12,530 nt of DNA, taken from contig JAFWWX010000292.1 in assembly GCA_017517985.1 (NCBI GenBank), positions 1-12,530 of the forward strand. The letters are read 5' to 3'. The DNA comes from Clostridia bacterium (GTDB lineage: Bacteria > Bacillota_A > Clostridia > Oscillospirales > CAG-382). The notes beneath the pieces were generated by a model. The model had not been told where the DNA came from, did not search any database, and saw only the letters and a program-made list of their open reading frames with translations. Both the position numbers and the translations under genes were made by a program. Position 1 is the stretch's first letter, and each line of letters opens with the position of its first letter. Below, piece after piece: positions 1 to 11,701 of this stretch.

Positions 1-502
1 CCTGGGGAACACCGGGCATAAGTTTTTCACAAGCCTCGATACCGATAAGGTTTGCAGGGTTGTGTAAAGGAGCAAGGTCACAGCATTTCTGGATAGCTGC
101 TTTAACTTCTTCTGCTGTTACAATTCCGTTTTCGTGAACATCAAGATATGTTACCTCATAGCCCTGTTTTTCAAGTTTTTTGAGTGTATGGAGTACTGCG
201 TGATGCTCAAACTTGGTTGATACTATGTGCTTTTTATCTTTTTTTGCACCGTTTATTGCTGCAGAAAGAATTGCCTGATTGTCCGCTTCGCTTCCACCGG
301 AGGTGAAGTAAATTTCGTTTGTATCTGCACCAAGGCATTTTGCAATTCTTTCTCTTGCATCTGTTAGTGCTTCTTTTGCTTCCTGACCTATTGTATGAAG
401 GCTTGAGGGGTTGCCGTATATTTTATCAAAGTATGGGAGCATAGCATGAATCGCTGTGCTGCTTGTTTTTGTCGTTGCTGCGTTATCTGCGTAAATTGTC
501 AT
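1..502 (-). CDS. nifS: NifS/IscS-type cysteine desulfurase, N-terminal part, running in frame into acetate kinase sequence (partial at window edge)
   Basis: NifS-family enzymes are PLP-dependent and take sulfur from cysteine for iron-sulfur clusters and thiolated tRNA. The ATG at 502-500 is preceded by an AGAAAGGA ribosome site. Residues 1-135 are typical: DNAATT at 6-11, GNPSSLH at 30-36, the PLP-site TSGGSEADN at 67-75, and the FEHHAVLHT histidine block at 98-106. After EEVKAAI (131-137) the family should continue with an xDT-xLVSIMxANNEIG-like stretch. Instead the frame reads on into acetate kinase sequence. The PLP lysine and active-site cysteine would lie further on and are not in the window. 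It follows the Rrf2 regulator gene after 158 bases and has its own promoter in that gap. The NifS identity of residues 1-135 is secure; the integrity of the gene is not. Confidence 0.85.
   Translation of the reverse strand, partial: MTIYADNAATTKTSSTAIHAMLPYFDKIYGNPSSLHTIGQEAKEALTDARERIAKCLGADTNEIYFTSGGSEADNQAILSAAINGAKKDKKHIVSTKFEHHAVLHTLKKLEKQGYEVTYLDVHENGIVTAEEVKAAIQKCCDLAPLHNPANLIGIEACEKLMPGVPQ
2..106 (-). other. ackA: Acetate kinase-like segment fused in frame to the NifS N-terminus (chimeric junction)
   Basis: Residues 133-167 of the reading frame that begins at 502 contain LAPLHNPANLIGIEA and then CEKLMPGVPQ. These are characteristic of acetate kinase (ATP:acetate phosphotransferase), where the APLHNP histidine lies in the active site and VAVFDTAFHQ normally follows. 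No desulfurase I know has this block. The change of family falls at EVKAAI (bases about 90-106), a stretch that fits both families, so the join sits in a short region of likely DNA identity. Such a join is what a short-overlap assembly error produces; microhomology recombination would look the same. Neither enzyme would work in this form: the acetate kinase part lacks its N-terminal third and the desulfurase part lacks its catalytic cysteine region. Confidence 0.8.
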
Positions 503-2713: not shown

Positions 2714-3544
2714 TTATCCGTTAATTTCGTCACTTGTGAACGCTTTGTAGTAATCGGATATTTTACCACCCAGATATTTAAGAAGTATTGATGCATCACG
2801 CATATTTACACTGCCGTTAAAATCAAGATCGAAAATTATACTGTAGTCAGAGGTTTGATTTCTTGCGCCTGTAGCATATCCGAGAAGGGAGGCTGTAAGG
2901 TCATTACCGTCAACTGTACTATCACCGTTGTAGTCGCCGAGAATTCCGTAGCTGTAGCCGTTTTGTGCAGCATACTGTATTGCGCCTTGTGCGACAGGGG
3001 AGAAGAAAAGCTTTACTCCTTTGTTAAAAGCATTTTCAAAAATAGTTACCGAGCCATTTTTGATAATTACTTTTTCAACATTCTGTGCGTCTTTAAAAGC
3101 CCCCTCAGCTATTTCATCAATATGTTCAGGCAAAGTAACAACAGTATCGTTACCGCTGTATTTTAAAAGTCTTCCTGCGGCATAAAGCATGCCGTTATCA
3201 TTCATAAGGATACCTTCATTTGATGGTAAAGTATCGCCACCAATATAAATTGTACCAACAGAATCCGTCATTGGAATAAAATCAGAGAACAATACAACTC
3301 CGTTTTCATCAGCTGTTGTTTGGTTGATATATATTATGTTGTCCTCATTGATTTCCGGCATATCTTTGTTTGTATAATCACCTGAAACAACAATTATACT
3401 GTAGGACTTTCCGGGAGTTTTTCCGGTTATTTCTACAGTGTATGAGCCATCTGAATTTTCGGAAAAATCCTCTGCACTTGCTGTGTATACTGTACACATA
3501 AGTAACGCAATTGAAAAGATGGCCATAAGAGATATTTTTTTCAT
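2714..3544 (-). CDS. Secreted protein with leucine-rich-repeat (BspA-like) segment and type I dockerin
   Basis: The 276-residue precursor starts at ATG 3544 after GGAG; the frame is open to 3619, but the promoter lies in that stretch. Residues 1-24 are a signal peptide cleaved after ASA. Residues 28-105 form a beta-rich, Ig-like region of unknown role. Residues 133-200 (LPEHIDEIAEGAFKDAQNV and following) resemble about two LRR_5/BspA repeats, ending with the repeat-capping pattern YAAQNGYSYGI. Residues 203-260 are a dockerin: one calcium loop from GDYNGDSTVDGNDL (D204, N206, D208, D212, D215), a second from DLDFNGSVNMRD (D239, D241, N243, D250). Dockerins plug into cohesins on scaffoldins, so this is probably a cell-surface or cellulosome/amylosome component. 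No catalytic domain is visible, so it may act in binding or as a structural part. Confidence 0.88.
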   Translation of the reverse strand: MKKISLMAIFSIALLMCTVYTASAEDFSENSDGSYTVEITGKTPGKSYSIIVVSGDYTNKDMPEINEDNIIYINQTTADENGVVLFSDFIPMTDSVGTIYIGGDTLPSNEGILMNDNGMLYAAGRLLKYSGNDTVVTLPEHIDEIAEGAFKDAQNVEKVIIKNGSVTIFENAFNKGVKLFFSPVAQGAIQYAAQNGYSYGILGDYNGDSTVDGNDLTASLLGYATGARNQTSDYSIIFDLDFNGSVNMRDASILLKYLGGKISDYYKAFTSDEING

Positions 3545-3572
3545 AAGTTGCTCCTTAAATGAGAATATATAA

Positions 3573-3601
3573 AGTATAGCACACAAAAAAATATTTGTCA
3601 A
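3573..3601 (-). promoter_or_regulatory. Sigma-A promoter of the dockerin gene
   Basis: On the minus strand TTGACA (3601-3596), 17 bases, then TATACT (3578-3573). Transcription would begin near 3566, about 20 bases before the ATG. This rules out a start at 3619 and shows that the gene is transcribed on its own. Confidence 0.8.
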
Positions 3602-3617
3602 TAATGGGACTATAAAC

Positions 3618-3642
3618 AAAAAAACAGCCGGTTGCCGGCCGT
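3618..3642 (-). terminator. Intrinsic terminator after mscL
   Basis: On the minus strand ACGGCCGG and CCGGCTGT pair across CAA, with one G-T wobble, followed by seven T (3624-3618). It lies 13 bases after the mscL stop codon and separates mscL from the dockerin promoter. Confidence 0.85.
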
Positions 3643-4252: not shown

Positions 4253-4816
4253 TTACTTTTTATATACTTCTTCTTTAAGTACGCCTATATAAGGCAGATT
4301 TCTGTATTTTTCGTTATAGTCAAGACCATAGCCTATTACAAATTCATCGGGGATTTTGTATCCGCAGTAATCGACCTTTACATCCACAACTCTTCTATCG
4401 GGCTTATCAACAAGTGCACAAAGCTTTACACTGTGAGCTTTTCTGCTTTTCAGATGTACCAATAGGTTTGAAAGCGTGTGACCTGTATCAATAATATCCT
4501 CCACAACAACTACATCGTAATCTTCAAGTGTTTCGTACGAGAGGTCATACTTAACCTTGACCTGACCTGTTGAAACAGTGCCGGAACCATAGGAGGAAAC
4601 CTTCATAAAATCAAGAATGCAAGGAATACGGATAGCTTTTAAAAGGTCTGCTGTAAAAGGCAGTGAGCCCTTGAGAATACAAACGAGAAGTAGCATCTTG
4701 TCCGAATCCTTATGATCCTGTGTTATTTTGTCTGCAATTCTCGTGACTGCGTCTTTTATCTGTTCTTCGGTAACGAGAATATTTTTTACATCCTGTTCTA
4801 TGTTGTAGATTGACAT
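4253..4816 (-). CDS. hpt: Hypoxanthine (guanine) phosphoribosyltransferase
   Basis: The enzyme salvages hypoxanthine and guanine to IMP and GMP using PRPP, in the cytoplasm. The 187-residue length is normal. The family marks are all present: VCILKGSLPF (45-54, pyrophosphate-binding turn), the flexible-loop region MKVSSYGSGT (71-80), the PRPP motif VVVVEDIIDTGHT (102-114), the purine-contact region ALVDKPDRR (134-142) and the C-terminal FVIGYGLDYNEKYRNLPYIGVL (159-180). The ATG at 4816 follows GAGAGG. It starts 24 bases after the tsaB stop and is the last gene of the operon. I see no strong terminator after it. In many Clostridia and Bacilli hpt sits with tilS and ftsH, so its place after tsaB is a different arrangement. 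Confidence 0.96.
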   Translation of the reverse strand: MSIYNIEQDVKNILVTEEQIKDAVTRIADKITQDHKDSDKMLLLVCILKGSLPFTADLLKAIRIPCILDFMKVSSYGSGTVSTGQVKVKYDLSYETLEDYDVVVVEDIIDTGHTLSNLLVHLKSRKAHSVKLCALVDKPDRRVVDVKVDYCGYKIPDEFVIGYGLDYNEKYRNLPYIGVLKEEVYKK

Positions 4817-4840: not shown

Positions 4841-5608
4841 TTATTTTGATTTAGCTTCTTTTTCAAGTCTTTCGCGTTCAGCTTGAGAAGCACGAAGATA
4901 AATAGGTGAAAGACCGGCCCCTGAAGCTTCGCAAGCCTCCTTTGAAAAAACGGCTGTTTTTGCAACAGAGAAAGCGTTTTGGTACATATCGGCACTGTCG
5001 CAAAGGGTATATTTAAACGGACATTCCGTTCCCTTTTCTTCGGTGAATTTGTCAAATAAATTTTTGCAAAGCGTTGCACCGTCACCAACGAGTAGAATTT
5101 TTTTGCCTGAATATTTTTCCGAAAGCTCGGAATAAATCTGATCTGCTGTTGGAAGTCTGTCGTCACAAAGACGGACAAGCTTTCCGTTTCTGCCGGTTTT
5201 AAAAAGAGCGTTATAGAATTGGGAACGTCTTGCATCCATAACCGGACAAATAATATAGCCGGAATAGTTCTTTACATTTTCCGAAAGAGCAGCCAGAGAG
5301 GACACTTCTATACATCTGTGAGAAATCCCTTTTGCCGTGAGGGCAAAGGATATGCCCTTGGCACATGAAACACCGATTCTTACTCCGGTAAATGAGCCGG
5401 GGCCGGCGCTGACCGCAATAACGCCTATATCGTCAGAGGTGATTCCGGCCGATGAAAGACAACTGTCAATCATCGGTAAAAGGGTTTCGCTGTGAGTAAA
5501 ACCGCAGTTGCTTGTCCAGAGTGAGAGTGGAATAAGTTCTGTTTCAGAACCTTTTGCCACACAAACCGAGGCGGTTTTTGCTGTAGTATCAATTGCAAGT
5601 GTATACAT
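4841..5608 (-). CDS. tsaB: TsaB, tRNA N6-threonylcarbamoyladenosine biosynthesis protein (YeaZ family)
   Basis: TsaB is the non-catalytic partner of the TsaD/TsaE complex that places the t6A modification at position 37 of ANN-decoding tRNAs. The 255 residues have the ASKHA fold: MYTLAIDTTAKTASVCV (1-17), THSETLLPMID (38-48), and the highly conserved AVSAGPGSFTGVRIGV (65-80) with AKGISFAL (83-90). The C-terminal half (MDARRSQFYNALF and onward) is more variable, as usual, and ends in a charged helix. The ATG at 5608 has a weak GGTGA site; the gene begins 39 bases after the MreB stop and is probably translated from the operon message. TsaE, TsaD and RimI, its frequent neighbours, are not in the window. 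Confidence 0.93.
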   Translation of the reverse strand: MYTLAIDTTAKTASVCVAKGSETELIPLSLWTSNCGFTHSETLLPMIDSCLSSAGITSDDIGVIAVSAGPGSFTGVRIGVSCAKGISFALTAKGISHRCIEVSSLAALSENVKNYSGYIICPVMDARRSQFYNALFKTGRNGKLVRLCDDRLPTADQIYSELSEKYSGKKILLVGDGATLCKNLFDKFTEEKGTECPFKYTLCDSADMYQNAFSVAKTAVFSKEACEASGAGLSPIYLRASQAERERLEKEAKSK

Positions 5609-5647: not shown

Positions 5648-6682
5648 TCACTGTTGGTTTTGCAACGTCGAGTGAATAACAATGCTTTCGATTTTTTGCC
5701 TTAAATCCTGGTTTGCAATAAGCTTTCCAATGCCCTGAATGACGCAGTCAAGAGGTCTGTCGGCAATTCTGACATTCATCTTTGTTTTCTCATGTAGATA
5801 AAAGCTTATACCGCCAAGTAGAGCGCCGCCACCGCTGAGCATAATTCCCGTGTCGTATATATCGGCACACAATTCCGGAGGAGTTGCTTCAAGAACAGAA
5901 CGGATAGCCTCAAAAAGCGAGGAAAGAGGTTCTGTTATTGCTTCTCTTACCTCGGAAGAGTACAGTGTAAATTCTGCGGCTTTTCCGTTACGCATATTTC
6001 TACCCTTTACCTCTATTGCACCAATATCAGTACTTGGATGAGCAGAGCCTATTTTTGTTTTGATTTCCTCCGCACTTGCACTGCCAATAAGAACATTAAA
6101 TTCCTGCTTTATATATGAAATAATAGCATTATCAAAGGTGTTTCCGGCAATTTTTACCGAAGATGAGCAGACAATACCGCCGTGAGAGATTACGGCAATT
6201 TCGGTTGTTCCGGCACCTATGTCAACAATCATACTGCCTTTTGGTGCCATAACAGGAAGTCCGGCACCTAAAGCCGCACATATGGGTTCCTCAAAGGTAT
6301 ATACACTTCCGGCGCCAGCTTCAATTGCAGAGTCAAGAACTGCTCTTTTTTCCACTTCCGTTATCCCGTAAGGTACACAGATAATAACTTTAGGGCGCAG
6401 ACCTGGTATAGAACCTATTGCACGTTTCATAAAATCCGAAAGCATCTCTGCACAGAATTCAAAATCTGAAATCACTCCGTCGCGTAACGGATAAAGGGAT
6501 TTAAGTGATGCAGGAGTTTTTCCTATCATCCTTTTTGCTTCTTCGCCGGTAGCTACAATATTTTCAGTATCCTTTTCAAAAGCAACAACCGACGGTTCCC
6601 GTACAGCAATTCCTTTTTCAAGGGTATAGACAAGGGTGTTGGATGTACCCAAATCTATTCCCACATACCTTGAACTGTTCAA
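5648..6682 (-). CDS. MreB/Mbl-family bacterial actin (rod-shape determining protein paralogue)
   Basis: MreB proteins are membrane-bound actin homologues that polymerise with ATP and guide cell-wall synthesis. The 344 residues show phosphate-1 VGIDLGTSNTLVY (7-19), EPSVVAF (29-35), GEEAKRMIGKTP (46-57), the connect region VPYGITEVEKRAV (103-115), phosphate-2 IVDIGAGTTEIAVIS (152-166) and the adenosine motif IMLSGGGALLGGI (280-292), all intact, so ATP binding is expected. The start is TTG at 6682, with GAGAG seven bases upstream; it gives the usual short N-terminus before GIDLGT, and no in-frame ATG fits. mreC and mreD, the usual partners, are absent; instead it follows the 1660-residue protein after 36 bases. 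It is therefore probably a paralogue with a special role rather than the main mreBCD copy. Confidence 0.93.
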   Translation of the reverse strand: MNSSRYVGIDLGTSNTLVYTLEKGIAVREPSVVAFEKDTENIVATGEEAKRMIGKTPASLKSLYPLRDGVISDFEFCAEMLSDFMKRAIGSIPGLRPKVIICVPYGITEVEKRAVLDSAIEAGAGSVYTFEEPICAALGAGLPVMAPKGSMIVDIGAGTTEIAVISHGGIVCSSSVKIAGNTFDNAIISYIKQEFNVLIGSASAEEIKTKIGSAHPSTDIGAIEVKGRNMRNGKAAEFTLYSSEVREAITEPLSSLFEAIRSVLEATPPELCADIYDTGIMLSGGGALLGGISFYLHEKTKMNVRIADRPLDCVIQGIGKLIANQDLRQKIESIVIHSTLQNQQ

Positions 6683-6718: not shown

Positions 6719-9700
6719 TTATATGTTTTCCAGTAGTCCGCAAATATCTGAAATTTCCACATTGTATCCGCGGACTTCAGCTTCTTTTTGTGGAAGAATA
6801 ATTCTATCGTAAGTATCTTTTATAAATCCGTTTTCAAATATCAGTGCATTTTCACCGCATCTAAGGGTGCTGTTACTGCATCGGGAGGCAACTGACGCGG
6901 AGTCCTTTTCCATACGGATACGCAAAAGCTTTTCAAGGTTGCTTATTTCGTCTGTGTGTTTTTCCCTTGTTATATCCACTGTTACAGCGCCGTCTTTTGC
7001 AAAGGAAATCAGCTGTGAAACAGCAAAAGCACCTTTGCAAAGATTATCCGTCATAACATCTTCAGGCTCAAGAGAAGATACCACATAAAGTATCTTTTTA
7101 CAGCAAAGAAGCTCGGAAAGACAAGCCGAACTGCCGTTGTAAAGCTGATTTACGTTATCTGTAATGCCGTAACTTCTTGTTGTTGAGTAAATACTCTTGC
7201 CAAAGGCTACGGAGACAACAATACAGTCATATGATAAATCACCCATATTGCCGATATATCTTACGGGAATTGCGGCAATACGGTTGTCTGAATATTTGTT
7301 TGCAAGAAGTTCAAGACCGTATTTGATTTCTGCCGCCTGAGCATTTGTCAGAGCAATGATTCCCACATTTTCAAAGCCATTCTTTTTTGCGGCAGCAAGT
7401 GCTACATCGCAGACCATATGAGCTTCAATTTTGTTTGTACGCACATTTTTATCGTATAGACCTGCAGGACATTTTACAAATACAACAGAATCAGAATTTC
7501 TATCTTTTGTAAGGCAGGTAACAGCATCCTTGAACAGGCTTTCTGCGAAAGCTGCAACATATCCGTTCTTTTCACAAAGCACACGGCTGAATGTGTATGT
7601 CGGGATTCCGTCGGGAAGGGAAGACATAATACTGCCTGTTCTCTCAAAGGGAGATGAGATGAAAATACATTTGTCAAAGTTTGCACACAAAGGCAGGGCT
7701 TCTGCGGTGTCCGTCTTCTCACTGTCAAGAAGAATAAGAGTTGCAGGGAGATTTTCTATTCTGTAAGCGAAACTGCTTTGAGTAATAATTGCAGTATACA
7801 TAACCTTAAAAAGATCTGGATGTATCTTCAGAATATCAGATACTGAAAGTGAAGCATCGGAAAGGTCTTTTTTCAAAAGATTAAGCTCGTTTCTGCCGTT
7901 TTTGCTGTTTATGTAATCGCGGAATCTTTTTCTGTGGCTCAGAACGACGTTATACTGTGCAAGCTTCTTTTCCTGCAGGTAGTTATCTCTGTAGTTTAAA
8001 TAATCATTTACAATAACTTCGTATTTAGGATATTCTTTTGAGTGGACTATATAATTTGCTAGAGCAAGAAAAATACTCTTTCGTGCAAGTGCACCGGTGT
8101 TTTCAGAAATAGAATTTGTTTCGATGTATTCAACTATTCCGGAAAGACCAAATGCAACAGCCTCTTTTTTTAGAATGTTCAGTCCGTGAAGGTCGAAAAG
8201 CGGTAAGGTGTTTTCACCTATTTCACGAAGCATTTTTGAAAGTCCGTTTTTGCAAAGTATACCGTCTTTATATTTAAGCTCATACAGGTCAGCGCATAAA
8301 GCACCGGAAACGGTATTAATAAGACCGCTTTTACCAGACAGCTTTTTAAATGCACCCATGGCAAGTACAAAATCTGCATTTACATCTGTGTTTTCCATAA
8401 TAGAGGTAATAAGTTTTGTTATTCCATTATAAAGAGCAACAGTGTCCTCACGGGCATTTTTGTATAGCTTTTTTATACACAAATCCAGTGATATTGCAAA
8501 GGAAGAAATGTACTTTACACGTTCAGTGTCTGCTTTGCCACCTGTTATATGATTGCCAAGTTTAATGCCGGCTTCTTCCGAAATGATAGCAAGTTCATTT
8601 TCGAGACTTTCTCTTTTTGCAAGCTTTTCAAGGAGAATACCTGCATCTGACGCTGAAAGCTTTGATTTTGGCAGAAGGTATTTTTTTAGTTCGTGAACAA
8701 GGCTGTTTTTTGCAAAGGGCTTGTTTTCGGCTTCTTTCCATTTTGCGTATAGCTCAGAGAAAGAGACACCGGACATATCGCTACTGAAGTCCGGAAGTTG
8801 CGAATTTACTGCGTGTATTTCATCAATTACAGAACAGGCTTTTTTGATAAATTCCGCGTTTATGCAACTGTTTTCCGAAACAATCCCGCAGGGAAGAAAA
8901 TCTATTCCTGAGTTCATTATAAGCCCAAAAAGCTCACCCAGCGAGAGGAGTGTATTTACATCGGTTATTGCTGATTCGTCAAGTCCGAGACAGCTTCTTG
9001 CAAAGACTGTTTTATCTGCCAAAACATCAAGCTGTTTTGCACATTCATAAAGAATATCTGAAATATTTTTTTGTATTTCAAAGGTGTTCTTTATGTGTTT
9101 GAGATATTCACCGATATTTGTTCGGCATTTTGAGCAAAGCTCTGATATATGCCGAGCCTTTTCAATTAGTTTATCTGAAATATCAAAAAGCTTTTCACAG
9201 CTTGCTTTTGATAGGTTGCCGGCATCAATAGAAAGACTGACAGATGTGTCTGGGCAATCCATTTCATATTTGCTGTATTCGTTAATGCAGTCGTAGAGGG
9301 AATATCCAAAGCTGGATTCTGAGTATAAGTCCCGTGAAAAAGCTGAAAGCTCATTTTCAGCACCTGAAATGTTTGAGTTTATGCTCAAAGAGGGGCGTTC
9401 GAGATCCTTTGTAAAAAGTTCAAGGTCGTTTAAAATATCCCGTTTGGTTTCATCGGACTTTTTCACTGTAAGGCAAAGCTCGGCTATTCCTCCCTCGGAA
9501 AGAGTATCATATAAGGAACTCAGGGACTCGCTGTACTTGGATGTAACAAGAATATTTTTGCCGGAAATAGAGGCTCTTGCAATAATATTTCCGATAGCTC
9601 TCTTCTTTCCTGTGCCGTGTGCACCTGTGATAATAATGCTGTTGTTTTCCGCAGCTGTCACAGCGTATCTTATGTCAGATGGAACATCAAAAGGAAGCGT

Positions 9701-11701
9701 AGCTTCAAGTCTGTCATAACTCTCCTGTGTATTTTCCACCGGTATATATTTGCCGGATTCAAGATAGCATTCAAAACCCTTTTCGTCTGACCTTTCAAGG
9801 CATTCAAGCATAAGGGAATAAGACAAATCAAAGGCGGAAACAAAGCTGTCTATACTAAAGCTAAACATTTCCGGATAATCGTTACAGATGTGCTCATAAA
9901 CAGCAAGGCAGAGTTTGATTTCCCTTGTGTTTGGGTTTTTTTCGGAAATAATGTCAGAAGGGCGGGTGGAAAGTATTTCCTGCTCGCGGACAGGGAAACT
10001 TGCACCGGTTTGATTTTCAATGTAATTTCGCAAACATTTGTTGAAAATGGTTTTTTCAACACCGAATTTCAGCTTAAGTGTACCTGACGCTGATGTGATT
10101 GTGCAGGGAACATAGGCGCAGGGAGCATAATATATATTATCATTCTCTGTGAACTTTACAATTCCTACTGCTGTATATATCAATGTGTTTCCGCTGTGAA
10201 GGGTATCTGCTTTTACAATATCACAAAGTCTTTCGGTATCAGAAATTATTTCGTCCCTTATTCTTTCCGAATACAGTTTTTCTCCGGAGAGCATATATTT
10301 TGAGGGGAATGTATAAATGCTGTTTTTGTCGGGACAAGCTGAAATTTTCTGAATGAGCTTTGAAAGCTTTGAATCATAAACTGCCTGCTCGGTATTGTTT
10401 CTTGTTTGCTTTGATAGATTCCTCGGAACAAAGGAGGAAATGCTCAAAAATGAGTCGGGATTTGAACAAACCGTTTCATCGTCAAGCGGTATGAGGGTAT
10501 ATTCCTTTCCAAAGTCCAAAAGTGTCTGCTGAAGGCAGAGTCCAAGTGAAGTGTGGCTGTAGGGAGAATATCCGTATAAAGAAACGGAGTTCGCATTTTT
10601 TTCGATACGCTTTACTGCAGCACCTATATTTCCGAATGCACCGGACATATTTTTTACAGGCTCGCCGTACGGACGCAGAGAAGAAACACCGCAAAGTCTT
10701 GAGGCGTATATGTCAACACAAAAGGCAAGTGTTGAGTTGCTTTTTAGTACAAGATTTGTTGCCTCCGTAACATTTCTTGCAAAATCCGTTTCTTCAGTTC
10801 CCAGAAGTCCAAGCACGTCGAAAACGAACAGGTCCTTGTCAAGAATTTTATCACGAAGCTCCGAAATGCTCTCGCTTACGGGATTTACCGCATAATAATC
10901 TCCAAGGCAGATACTCACAAGAACTTTAACGGGGCCTGCACCCTTGCGAAGATAAATAATACCCGAACGAAGACCGCATCTTTCTGCACAGGAGCAGTAA
11001 ATAAGAGCCGCTTCCGTAAGACTTATGCTTCTGTTGTTGGATTCCAGGAGCTTATCCTGGTCGCGTATTATGCAGTCACCATCAAGTATTTCTCTGTGAA
11101 TTGCAGAGAATGTCAGCTTTACTGACTGTATATATGAAGCAAGTGCTTCTGCATAGAGCAAAGATTTTGGAGCTGTACGTGAATGTTTCTGCGAAACTTT
11201 CTTTGCGTGACCGGCAAGCATTTTTTCAGCTTTTGCGGCAAATTCACTGCCGGGAAGTACATATGTACAAAGAAGCTCCGGAGGCATTTCCGGACAAACG
11301 TGACCAAAAGGATATATTTTCACGTCCTGAACGGATACAGCAGTAGTTTCTCCGACTGTTACGGAAACACGAATAGCCACAGTTGTGGTTGCTGTGAGTT
11401 TGCGTATAAATGCGGACTTCGGAAGTATGCTGTACTTTTCAAGATTTATAATTACAGTATCCGAGTTTCCCGAAAGGCAGTCATATTTTGAAAAATCAGG
11501 GTTATCAACACTGAAGCTCATAATCTCATCACCAGAAGCTTTTGCCGTGATGTTTATGGCAATACCACTGCGAGGGGTGTCGGGTATGTTTTTGAGTATT
11601 ATATTTTTTATAATCGGTATACCGCTGTAAAAATGGGTGGCAGTATATACCGGAGAAAGATTTGCCGAAACAGAGAATGCCATATCTGCTTGATTGTTCA
11701 T
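6719..11701 (-). CDS. 1660-residue protein with the plan of DUF4011-type SF1 helicases but degenerate catalytic motifs (putative pseudo-helicase)
   Basis: The ATG at 11701 follows AAGGA. Residues 8-130 are beta-rich and Ig-like. Residues 140-302 align in layout with the transglutaminase-like part of the giant DUF4011 helicases, including PEMPPELLCTYVLPG and LTEAALIYCSCAERCGLRS. Residues 395-570 fit DUF4011 (YTAVGIVKF followed by YYAPCAYVPC). A helicase-like core begins with NNSIIITGAHGTGKKRAIGN (686-705), has a helical insert of about 550 residues (770-1310), and resumes with TLILLDSEKTD (1321-1331), AGLYDKNVRTNKIEA (1413-1427), VGIIALTNAQAAEI (1446-1459) and KKILYVVSSLEPEDV (1535-1549). The Walker A Ser/Thr is Lys700, Walker B DE is DS, the motif III GDxxQ and motif VI TRAR are absent, and no nuclease domain follows. 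The frame is unbroken, so it is probably a non-catalytic scaffold. Family placement is from remembered motifs and needs a profile search. Confidence 0.75.
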   Translation of the reverse strand: MNNQADMAFSVSANLSPVYTATHFYSGIPIIKNIILKNIPDTPRSGIAINITAKASGDEIMSFSVDNPDFSKYDCLSGNSDTVIINLEKYSILPKSAFIRKLTATTTVAIRVSVTVGETTAVSVQDVKIYPFGHVCPEMPPELLCTYVLPGSEFAAKAEKMLAGHAKKVSQKHSRTAPKSLLYAEALASYIQSVKLTFSAIHREILDGDCIIRDQDKLLESNNRSISLTEAALIYCSCAERCGLRSGIIYLRKGAGPVKVLVSICLGDYYAVNPVSESISELRDKILDKDLFVFDVLGLLGTEETDFARNVTEATNLVLKSNSTLAFCVDIYASRLCGVSSLRPYGEPVKNMSGAFGNIGAAVKRIEKNANSVSLYGYSPYSHTSLGLCLQQTLLDFGKEYTLIPLDDETVCSNPDSFLSISSFVPRNLSKQTRNNTEQAVYDSKLSKLIQKISACPDKNSIYTFPSKYMLSGEKLYSERIRDEIISDTERLCDIVKADTLHSGNTLIYTAVGIVKFTENDNIYYAPCAYVPCTITSASGTLKLKFGVEKTIFNKCLRNYIENQTGASFPVREQEILSTRPSDIISEKNPNTREIKLCLAVYEHICNDYPEMFSFSIDSFVSAFDLSYSLMLECLERSDEKGFECYLESGKYIPVENTQESYDRLEATLPFDVPSDIRYAVTAAENNSIIITGAHGTGKKRAIGNIIARASISGKNILVTSKYSESLSSLYDTLSEGGIAELCLTVKKSDETKRDILNDLELFTKDLERPSLSINSNISGAENELSAFSRDLYSESSFGYSLYDCINEYSKYEMDCPDTSVSLSIDAGNLSKASCEKLFDISDKLIEKARHISELCSKCRTNIGEYLKHIKNTFEIQKNISDILYECAKQLDVLADKTVFARSCLGLDESAITDVNTLLSLGELFGLIMNSGIDFLPCGIVSENSCINAEFIKKACSVIDEIHAVNSQLPDFSSDMSGVSFSELYAKWKEAENKPFAKNSLVHELKKYLLPKSKLSASDAGILLEKLAKRESLENELAIISEEAGIKLGNHITGGKADTERVKYISSFAISLDLCIKKLYKNAREDTVALYNGITKLITSIMENTDVNADFVLAMGAFKKLSGKSGLINTVSGALCADLYELKYKDGILCKNGLSKMLREIGENTLPLFDLHGLNILKKEAVAFGLSGIVEYIETNSISENTGALARKSIFLALANYIVHSKEYPKYEVIVNDYLNYRDNYLQEKKLAQYNVVLSHRKRFRDYINSKNGRNELNLLKKDLSDASLSVSDILKIHPDLFKVMYTAIITQSSFAYRIENLPATLILLDSEKTDTAEALPLCANFDKCIFISSPFERTGSIMSSLPDGIPTYTFSRVLCEKNGYVAAFAESLFKDAVTCLTKDRNSDSVVFVKCPAGLYDKNVRTNKIEAHMVCDVALAAAKKNGFENVGIIALTNAQAAEIKYGLELLANKYSDNRIAAIPVRYIGNMGDLSYDCIVVSVAFGKSIYSTTRSYGITDNVNQLYNGSSACLSELLCCKKILYVVSSLEPEDVMTDNLCKGAFAVSQLISFAKDGAVTVDITREKHTDEISNLEKLLRIRMEKDSASVASRCSNSTLRCGENALIFENGFIKDTYDRIILPQKEAEVRGYNVEISDICGLLENI

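Follow-up and report, generated by a model that had tools for sequence, protein, structure and literature searches.

A degenerate ProA-type helicase encoded beside mreB in a lineage of Clostridia, a candidate non-enzymatic partner of MreB

Described relatives and the protein in the window

The closest described relatives of the protein presented here belong to two families labelled as anti-phage: ProA (NF058533; the name is taken from NCBIfam), which appears in PADLOC as PDC-S37, and the Hhe or DUF4011-DUF3320-MTES_1575 helicases (NF042953, PF13195, PF11784, PF18741; Hhe in PADLOC). The window, here and throughout, is the whole stretch of 12,530 nucleotides analysed, from a Clostridia bacterium. 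The window protein has the domain order of ProA over its whole length, and has the SF1 core and the insert region in common with the Hhe-type helicases. It differs from ProA by the absence of the helicase motifs, of the transglutaminase-like Cys and His and of the DUF3320 tail, by a decayed nuclease and by its linkage to mreB. It differs from the Hhe-type proteins in that PF13195, PF11784 and PF18741 are unmatched in it (P0001), as they are in L035 and L039 from two related clades, B and C. A DUF4011 gene also flanks a defence hotspot of Pseudomonas aeruginosa, according to one report (PMC10250203).

Helicase kin without helicase function have been named pseudohelicases before, namely yeast Utp25 and PriA of Deinococcus radiodurans (excerpts of PMC9539457 and PMC4504706). 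The window protein is almost certainly a pseudohelicase like these two. To our knowledge, neither of them is of the DUF4011 type or has a tie to the cytoskeleton. MreC, MreD and RodZ, the operon partners or binders of MreB, are membrane proteins; the window protein, unlike them, has no strong hydrophobic segment, the highest 19-residue mean being 1.46. In our literature search, no paper was found that joins MreB, a pseudoenzyme and a helicase, and none that combines even five of the six subjects MreB, exaptation, pseudo-enzyme, cell shape, operon and Clostridia; the papers listed that combine MreB, helicase, operon and catalytically inactive proteins concern other subjects by title.

Table 1. 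Features of the pseudo-helicase gene and its downstream neighbours (window positions)
Feature	Position	Strand	Basis or remark
Pseudo-helicase gene, degenerate ProA/DUF4011-type protein, 1660 aa (P0001)	6719..11701	-	Open frame; NF058533 score; hhalign
Transglutaminase-like region, about residues 176-300; Cys and His invariant in intact rows absent	10802..11176	-	Alignment
Motif I (Walker A), GAHGTGKK, residues 693-700	9602..9625	-	Lys699 retained, Lys700 instead of Ser/Thr
Motif II (Walker B), LLDSEKT, residues 1324-1330	7712..7732	-	Asp1326 retained, Glu gone
Motif III position, SSPFER instead of GDPKQ, residues 1349-1354	7640..7657	-	Alignment
Motif VI position, ELLCCKK instead of SRAR arginines, residues 1530-1536	7094..7114	-	Precedes VVSSLEPED
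C-terminal remnant, about residues 1590-1660, colinear with MTES_1575 (Vsr-like) nuclease domain	6722..6934	-	hhalign and multiple alignment
MreB, direct downstream partner, TTG start as listed	5648..6682	-	NF010539 435.6 bits (cut-off 293); PF06723 E 7e-127
TsaB, also neighbour in clade A and B loci read	4841..5608	-	TIGR03725 above cut-off; order from ORFs
Hpt (hypoxanthine phosphoribosyltransferase), also neighbour in clade A and B loci read	4253..4816	-	TIGR01203 above cut-off; order from ORFs

The pseudo-helicase gene is a single open frame of 4983 bases and 1660 codons with 0 internal stops, as the first-pass annotation of this DNA had described it, and AAAGGA sits shortly 5' of its ATG. 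Its product scores 176.8 bits (E 4.7e-52) against NF058533, for which the curated cut-off of 1500 lies far above, and reaches E 1.5e-11 against NF042953, far below the curated cut-off of 2000. By whole-protein score it thus falls outside ProA, and the clade B and C proteins L035 and L039 (100.7 and 172.7 bits) lie below the same cut-off. Homology to ProA is colinear over the full length: hhalign against a set of six intact proteins (P0024, P0025, P0026, L044, L046, L047) gave E 2e-50 over 1522 columns, with the DUF3320 tail absent. One member of this set, L044 from a relative, exceeds the ProA cut-off with 2106 bits. The kinship with SF1 helicases and the segment order of the giant helicases, both proposed in the first-pass annotation, are thus recovered with NCBIfam and hhalign.

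Pfam gave no family above cut-off in the window protein and no match to DUF4011 (PF13195); traces of DUF4011 below cut-off were seen in two clade B frames (G028, E 5.5e-4; G035, E 1e-3). A sequence search of the PDB gave no match with the window protein, weak matches (E 0.012 or worse) with alignment A1, and matches to SMUBP-2, SEN1, UPF1 and others with the intact set. Rfam gave no match at the gathering score.

State of the catalytic centres

Relatives of the window protein were collected in three protein searches. Among the best 7985 candidates, clade A comprised 22 further relatives with 99-100% query coverage and 36-76% identity, beyond which intact DUF4011-type helicases followed at E 5.9e-10 and worse. 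Diverged proteins of like length were retrieved when genomes were searched with clade A. Clade B has at least 13 proteins (best 7982 candidates) and clade C has 44, of which 3 are partial (7141 candidates scored); the resulting total of 80 relatives in clades A to C is a minimum and no full census. Profiles built from locus sequences relate clade B to clade A at E 1.5e-71 and clade C to clade A at E 9.2e-39, and relate clades B and C to the intact set at E 1.8e-42 and 1.1e-27.

In intact ProA-type proteins the aligned motifs read GPPGTGKS (I), FDEAS (II), GDPKQ (III) and NVAVSRAR (VI). The four altered strings quoted in the first-pass annotation are all present in the window protein and align to these motifs (Table 1). 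No relative with an intact motif I, II, III or VI was found among the 80 (3 partial); in the control proteins these motifs were intact in 8/8, 8/8, 7/8 and 8/8. Neither a lack of kinship in profile searches nor a relative with intact motifs, two outcomes that the first-pass annotation had named as refuting, was seen. The patterns of active SF1 helicases (AAA_11/AAA_12) were likewise absent from clades A to C, both GxxG[ST]GK[ST] for motif I and DEAS, GDxxQ and SRA for motifs II, III and VI (0/80 each); two DEAS strings occur off the motif II position, in P0034 and P0048.

The loss is graded between the clades. Four P-loop residues (G693, G696, G698, K699) and Asp1326 of motif II do not vary among the 23 members of clade A, in all of which the motif II Glu is absent and motifs III and VI are missing; the Ser/Thr position of the P-loop holds Lys in 22 and Glu in 1. 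The shorter pattern GxxG[ST]GK is kept by clade A alone, some members having GSGK rather than GTGK, and the P-loop is absent in all 57 clade B and C proteins (3 partial). The statement that all visible motifs are altered therefore stands for the Ser/Thr, the motif II Glu and motifs III and VI, but not for Gly698, Lys699 and Asp1326. The conservation of GTGK (or GSGK) and Asp1326 throughout clade A would suit a working ATPase with non-canonical motifs, in which Lys700 and other residues replace the usual Mg and hydrolysis groups. We consider this very improbable, since the Glu and motifs III and VI are missing in the same 23 proteins and the orthologous clades have lost the P-loop.

The accessory centres are decayed as well. 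In the region which we take to be transglutaminase-like, the Cys and His are present in 6/6 intact rows and in 0/44 degenerate rows at the aligned place (23 of clade A, 18 of clade B and 3 of clade C, some of them near-duplicates). At the C-terminus, the MTES_1575 nuclease model (PF18741) gave no Pfam match in the window protein and only the colinear remnant is seen; the hhalign alignment reaches position 1706 of 1955, the DUF3320 tail is missing, and the conserved acidic stretch of intact nuclease rows falls in a gap of the multiple alignment. Because the helicase motifs are broken, the accessory centres are decayed and the whole P-loop is gone in two clades, catalysis appears to be lost, and the window protein is, on the strength of its sequence, almost certainly a pseudoenzyme.

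Linkage to mreB in one lineage

Three findings go beyond the first-pass annotation: the linkage to MreB, the identity of the parent family (ProA, NF058533) and the decay of the transglutaminase-like and nuclease domains. In the window, mreB begins 36 nt past the stop codon of the pseudo-helicase and encodes an ordinary MreB. The pseudo-helicase lies directly upstream of an MreB gene in 14/14 testable loci, that is, in the window and in those 13 genomes (G001, G002 and 11 others) whose contig continues past the gene; G009 and G029 are counted with only the pseudo-helicase end on the contig, and G036, a contig fragment, is left out. The pair is thus conserved in every testable locus. With start codons taken mechanically, the gap between the two genes ranges from -4 to 42 nt, with a 4-nt overlap in 6 loci. 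Further downstream the genes change, with tsaB and hpt in clades A and B and a gpmI-like gene in clade C (named by eye outside the window), while mreB stays. No defence genes were recognised beside the pseudo-helicase in the loci read, the neighbours being of core type.

Of the 13 genomes that offer a testable locus, 12 have a second MreB, and G009 has the partner MreB only. In a tree of MreB proteins, a single clade (100/99) holds the partner MreBs (13 rows) and is joined at 100/99 by four mreC-adjacent MreBs of relatives; 11 second copies fall into a separate clade with the other paralogue (100/98). For this tree, 14 of 20 relative loci passed the ORF filter; L133, L140 and L141 were dropped from seven mreC-adjacent loci, leaving the four rows, and L051 (the same gene as L150) and L078 (a near-copy) were removed.

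Except for G036, every genome with the pseudo-helicase gene yielded an mreC gene (13 of 14). In all 10 loci read in the pseudo-helicase lineage (L151-L160) it has neither mreB nor mreD adjoining it, and it mostly adjoins apparent mnmE, peptidase U32 or dusB genes, named by eye. MreC occurs in 85 of 149 relatives, 72 of which are without the pseudo-helicase gene; the pseudo-helicase is thus not generally needed with MreB. Regarding replacement of RodZ, HTH_25 was above cut-off in 6 of 30 genomes, both with and without the gene. Regarding loss of MreD, its model matched 14 of 32 genomes and 4 of the 14 with the gene. The assemblies are split into many contigs and may be incomplete.

The pseudo-helicase/mreB pair is a lineage trait. 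A scan of genome contigs with the single window protein gave no match, and with the alignment it gave two loci, in G001 (Clostridia bacterium RGIG7291, a MAG from buffalo cecum) and G002 (Oscillospiraceae bacterium SIG622, a MAG). The combined profile recovered the MreB-linked protein from 14 of the 149 genomes related to G001. When 391 genomes of the class were scored, G001, the query's own genome, was alone in scoring strongly; 74 matched at E 0.001, of which a part was inspected, and the next best after G001 was a partial match at 9.0e-43. In an unrooted tree of the helicases, 17 MreB-linked proteins form one group (100/100), separate from seven intact proteins (100/100) and four other degenerate ProA-like proteins (92/93), in a data set with uneven composition and two long branches (L043, L112) that meet.

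Other ProA-like proteins were met in passing. Those at L041 5018-10057 and L111 6605-11632 (1679 and 1675 aa) have a P-loop ending in SGKT and no DEAS that could be found, and adjoin an apparent helicase gene and another gene common to both loci; the L041 protein matches the MTES_1575 nuclease. Those at L112 3485-8269 and L043 6349-11361 are without a recognisable P-loop and lie away from MreB, L112 near capsule-type genes (by eye) and L043 with an MTES_1575 match below cut-off. Dead kin of ProA may have more than one origin.

The 14 genomes with the gene contain no DUF4011 match above cut-off, and both positive controls (G093, G127) were matched; AAA_12 is above cut-off in other frames of 714-1250 aa in 5 of the 14 (G001, G007, G019, G020, G035). 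The idea that the protein regulates an intact paralogue encoded in its own genome was rejected on the DUF4011 result, while the AAA_12 frames in five genomes tell against a clean slate. Carriage as phage or plasmid cargo was also rejected, as the matches are weak: one phage record and 27 plasmid records, all below 60% identity and none over more than 80% of the query; among the matches listed, 4 of 6 rows are annotated as DUF3320. The same observations bear on an anti-phage function retained without enzyme activity, in which the protein guards MreB or, as a decoy, mimics ProA and traps phage inhibitors. The anti-phage labels of the parent families speak for it, but the core-type position, the conserved gene order, the lack of DUF4011 matches and the weak phage and plasmid matches make it improbable.

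Selection and a proposed role beside MreB

Synonymous sites are unsaturated in only one pair of pseudo-helicase genes, that of G007 and G035 in clade B (dS 0.53, dN 0.046, dN/dS 0.086). The clade C pair G025/G016 gave 0.078 at dS 1.62. Selection in clades B and C is thus purifying. Saturation affects the clade A pairs (window/G001, dS 2.43, ratio 0.167; G001/G002, dS 1.94, ratio 0.193), and for window/G002 the ratio is not computable. The view that selection has kept this full-length SF1/DUF4011-type pseudo-helicase is upheld by these low ratios, measurable free of saturation in clade B alone. In the G007/G035 pair the MreB ratio is 0.007, and the pseudo-helicase therefore evolves faster than its neighbour.

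A decaying pseudogene, inactivated recently, would account for the loss of motifs and for the frame in G020 (L038 4332-9219), which is interrupted into two ORFs in this 1 of 13 genomes, either by assembly error or by real decay. It is as good as ruled out by the dN/dS of about 0.08 in two pairs and by the many full-length relatives, which fall into many protein clusters with 26-93% identity to the respective queries.

The most economical account of three findings, namely retention by selection, a place among core-type genes and a link to the principal MreB at each testable locus, is that the protein has a structural or regulatory role together with MreB. We infer such a role and propose, as the probable explanation, that a defence enzyme was exapted as a non-enzymatic scaffold or adaptor of MreB. 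The protein would be the catalytically dead descendant of a ProA-type anti-phage protein (transglutaminase-like region, DUF4011, split SF1 helicase and Vsr-like nuclease) which, in one lineage of gut Clostridia, would have settled among the core genes and formed a two-gene unit with that of the main MreB. It would act by binding rather than by catalysis, its two RecA-like lobes and its large insert offering a platform for MreB filaments, and it might help to assemble or position these filaments or to couple them to the elongation machinery. The GTGK loop that clade A retains might still bind a nucleotide that serves as a structural ligand, and clades B and C would do without. A non-enzymatic role as such, which the first-pass annotation had proposed, would follow from the loss of catalysis.

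The linkage shows joint inheritance and probably joint expression of the two genes, and not binding; the pseudo-helicase could be hitch-hiking in one core operon. Moreover, its fast divergence, with 16-19% identity between clades, against at least 44% among the partner MreBs, is unusual for a tight interface. The pseudoenzyme may serve another binding task, as a nucleotide-, RNA- or DNA-dependent sensor or regulator that is co-transcribed with mreB merely through the shared core operon. That 23/23 clade A proteins keep Gly and Lys in the P-loop and Asp in motif II is compatible with binding without hydrolysis, and neither of the operon neighbours TsaB and Hpt is a cell-shape protein. Clades B and C, however, have no P-loop and stand equally beside mreB, which stays where the further downstream genes vary (tsaB-hpt or gpmI-like), and neither Pfam nor NCBIfam gave a nucleic-acid-binding family at cut-off in the window protein; we regard this alternative as unlikely, though worth serious consideration. 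The nucleic-acid sensor suggested in the first-pass annotation receives no support: the analysis turned up no pointer to nucleic acid, and clades B and C lack the P-loop that was singled out there.

The scaffold or adaptor reading can be carried further, to a version that we offer tentatively and consider possible rather than probable. A whole anti-phage helicase-nuclease may have been domesticated, its catalytic centres extinguished, so that it now serves the principal MreB as an obligate partner in the cytoplasm; in this lineage of Clostridia the mreBCD operon would have fallen apart and the pseudo-helicase would have come to stand beside mreB, giving a new class of bacterial cytoskeletal regulator derived from immunity. 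If exaptation of this kind is true, it would reveal how a phage defence protein can turn to the control of cell shape, and it would point to a candidate regulator of MreB in uncultured gut Clostridia that differs from the partners known so far. A natural series, in which a giant motor loses catalysis and keeps its scaffold, would then run from intact ProA through clade A, where a residual P-loop is left, to clades B and C, where none is. On this reading, ProA- or Hhe-like matches in such genomes need not be defence systems.

Elsewhere in the window, the cysteine desulfurase frame at 1-502 (minus strand) is truncated, and its last part (window 1 to about 85) resembles acetate kinase, Pfam matching both families above cut-offs; this stretch looks like a chimeric contig end. 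The frame at window 2714-3619 (minus strand) has a dockerin type I domain and, below cut-off, a match to LRR_5, and a protein that resembles its product by eye is encoded at L001 18835-19728.
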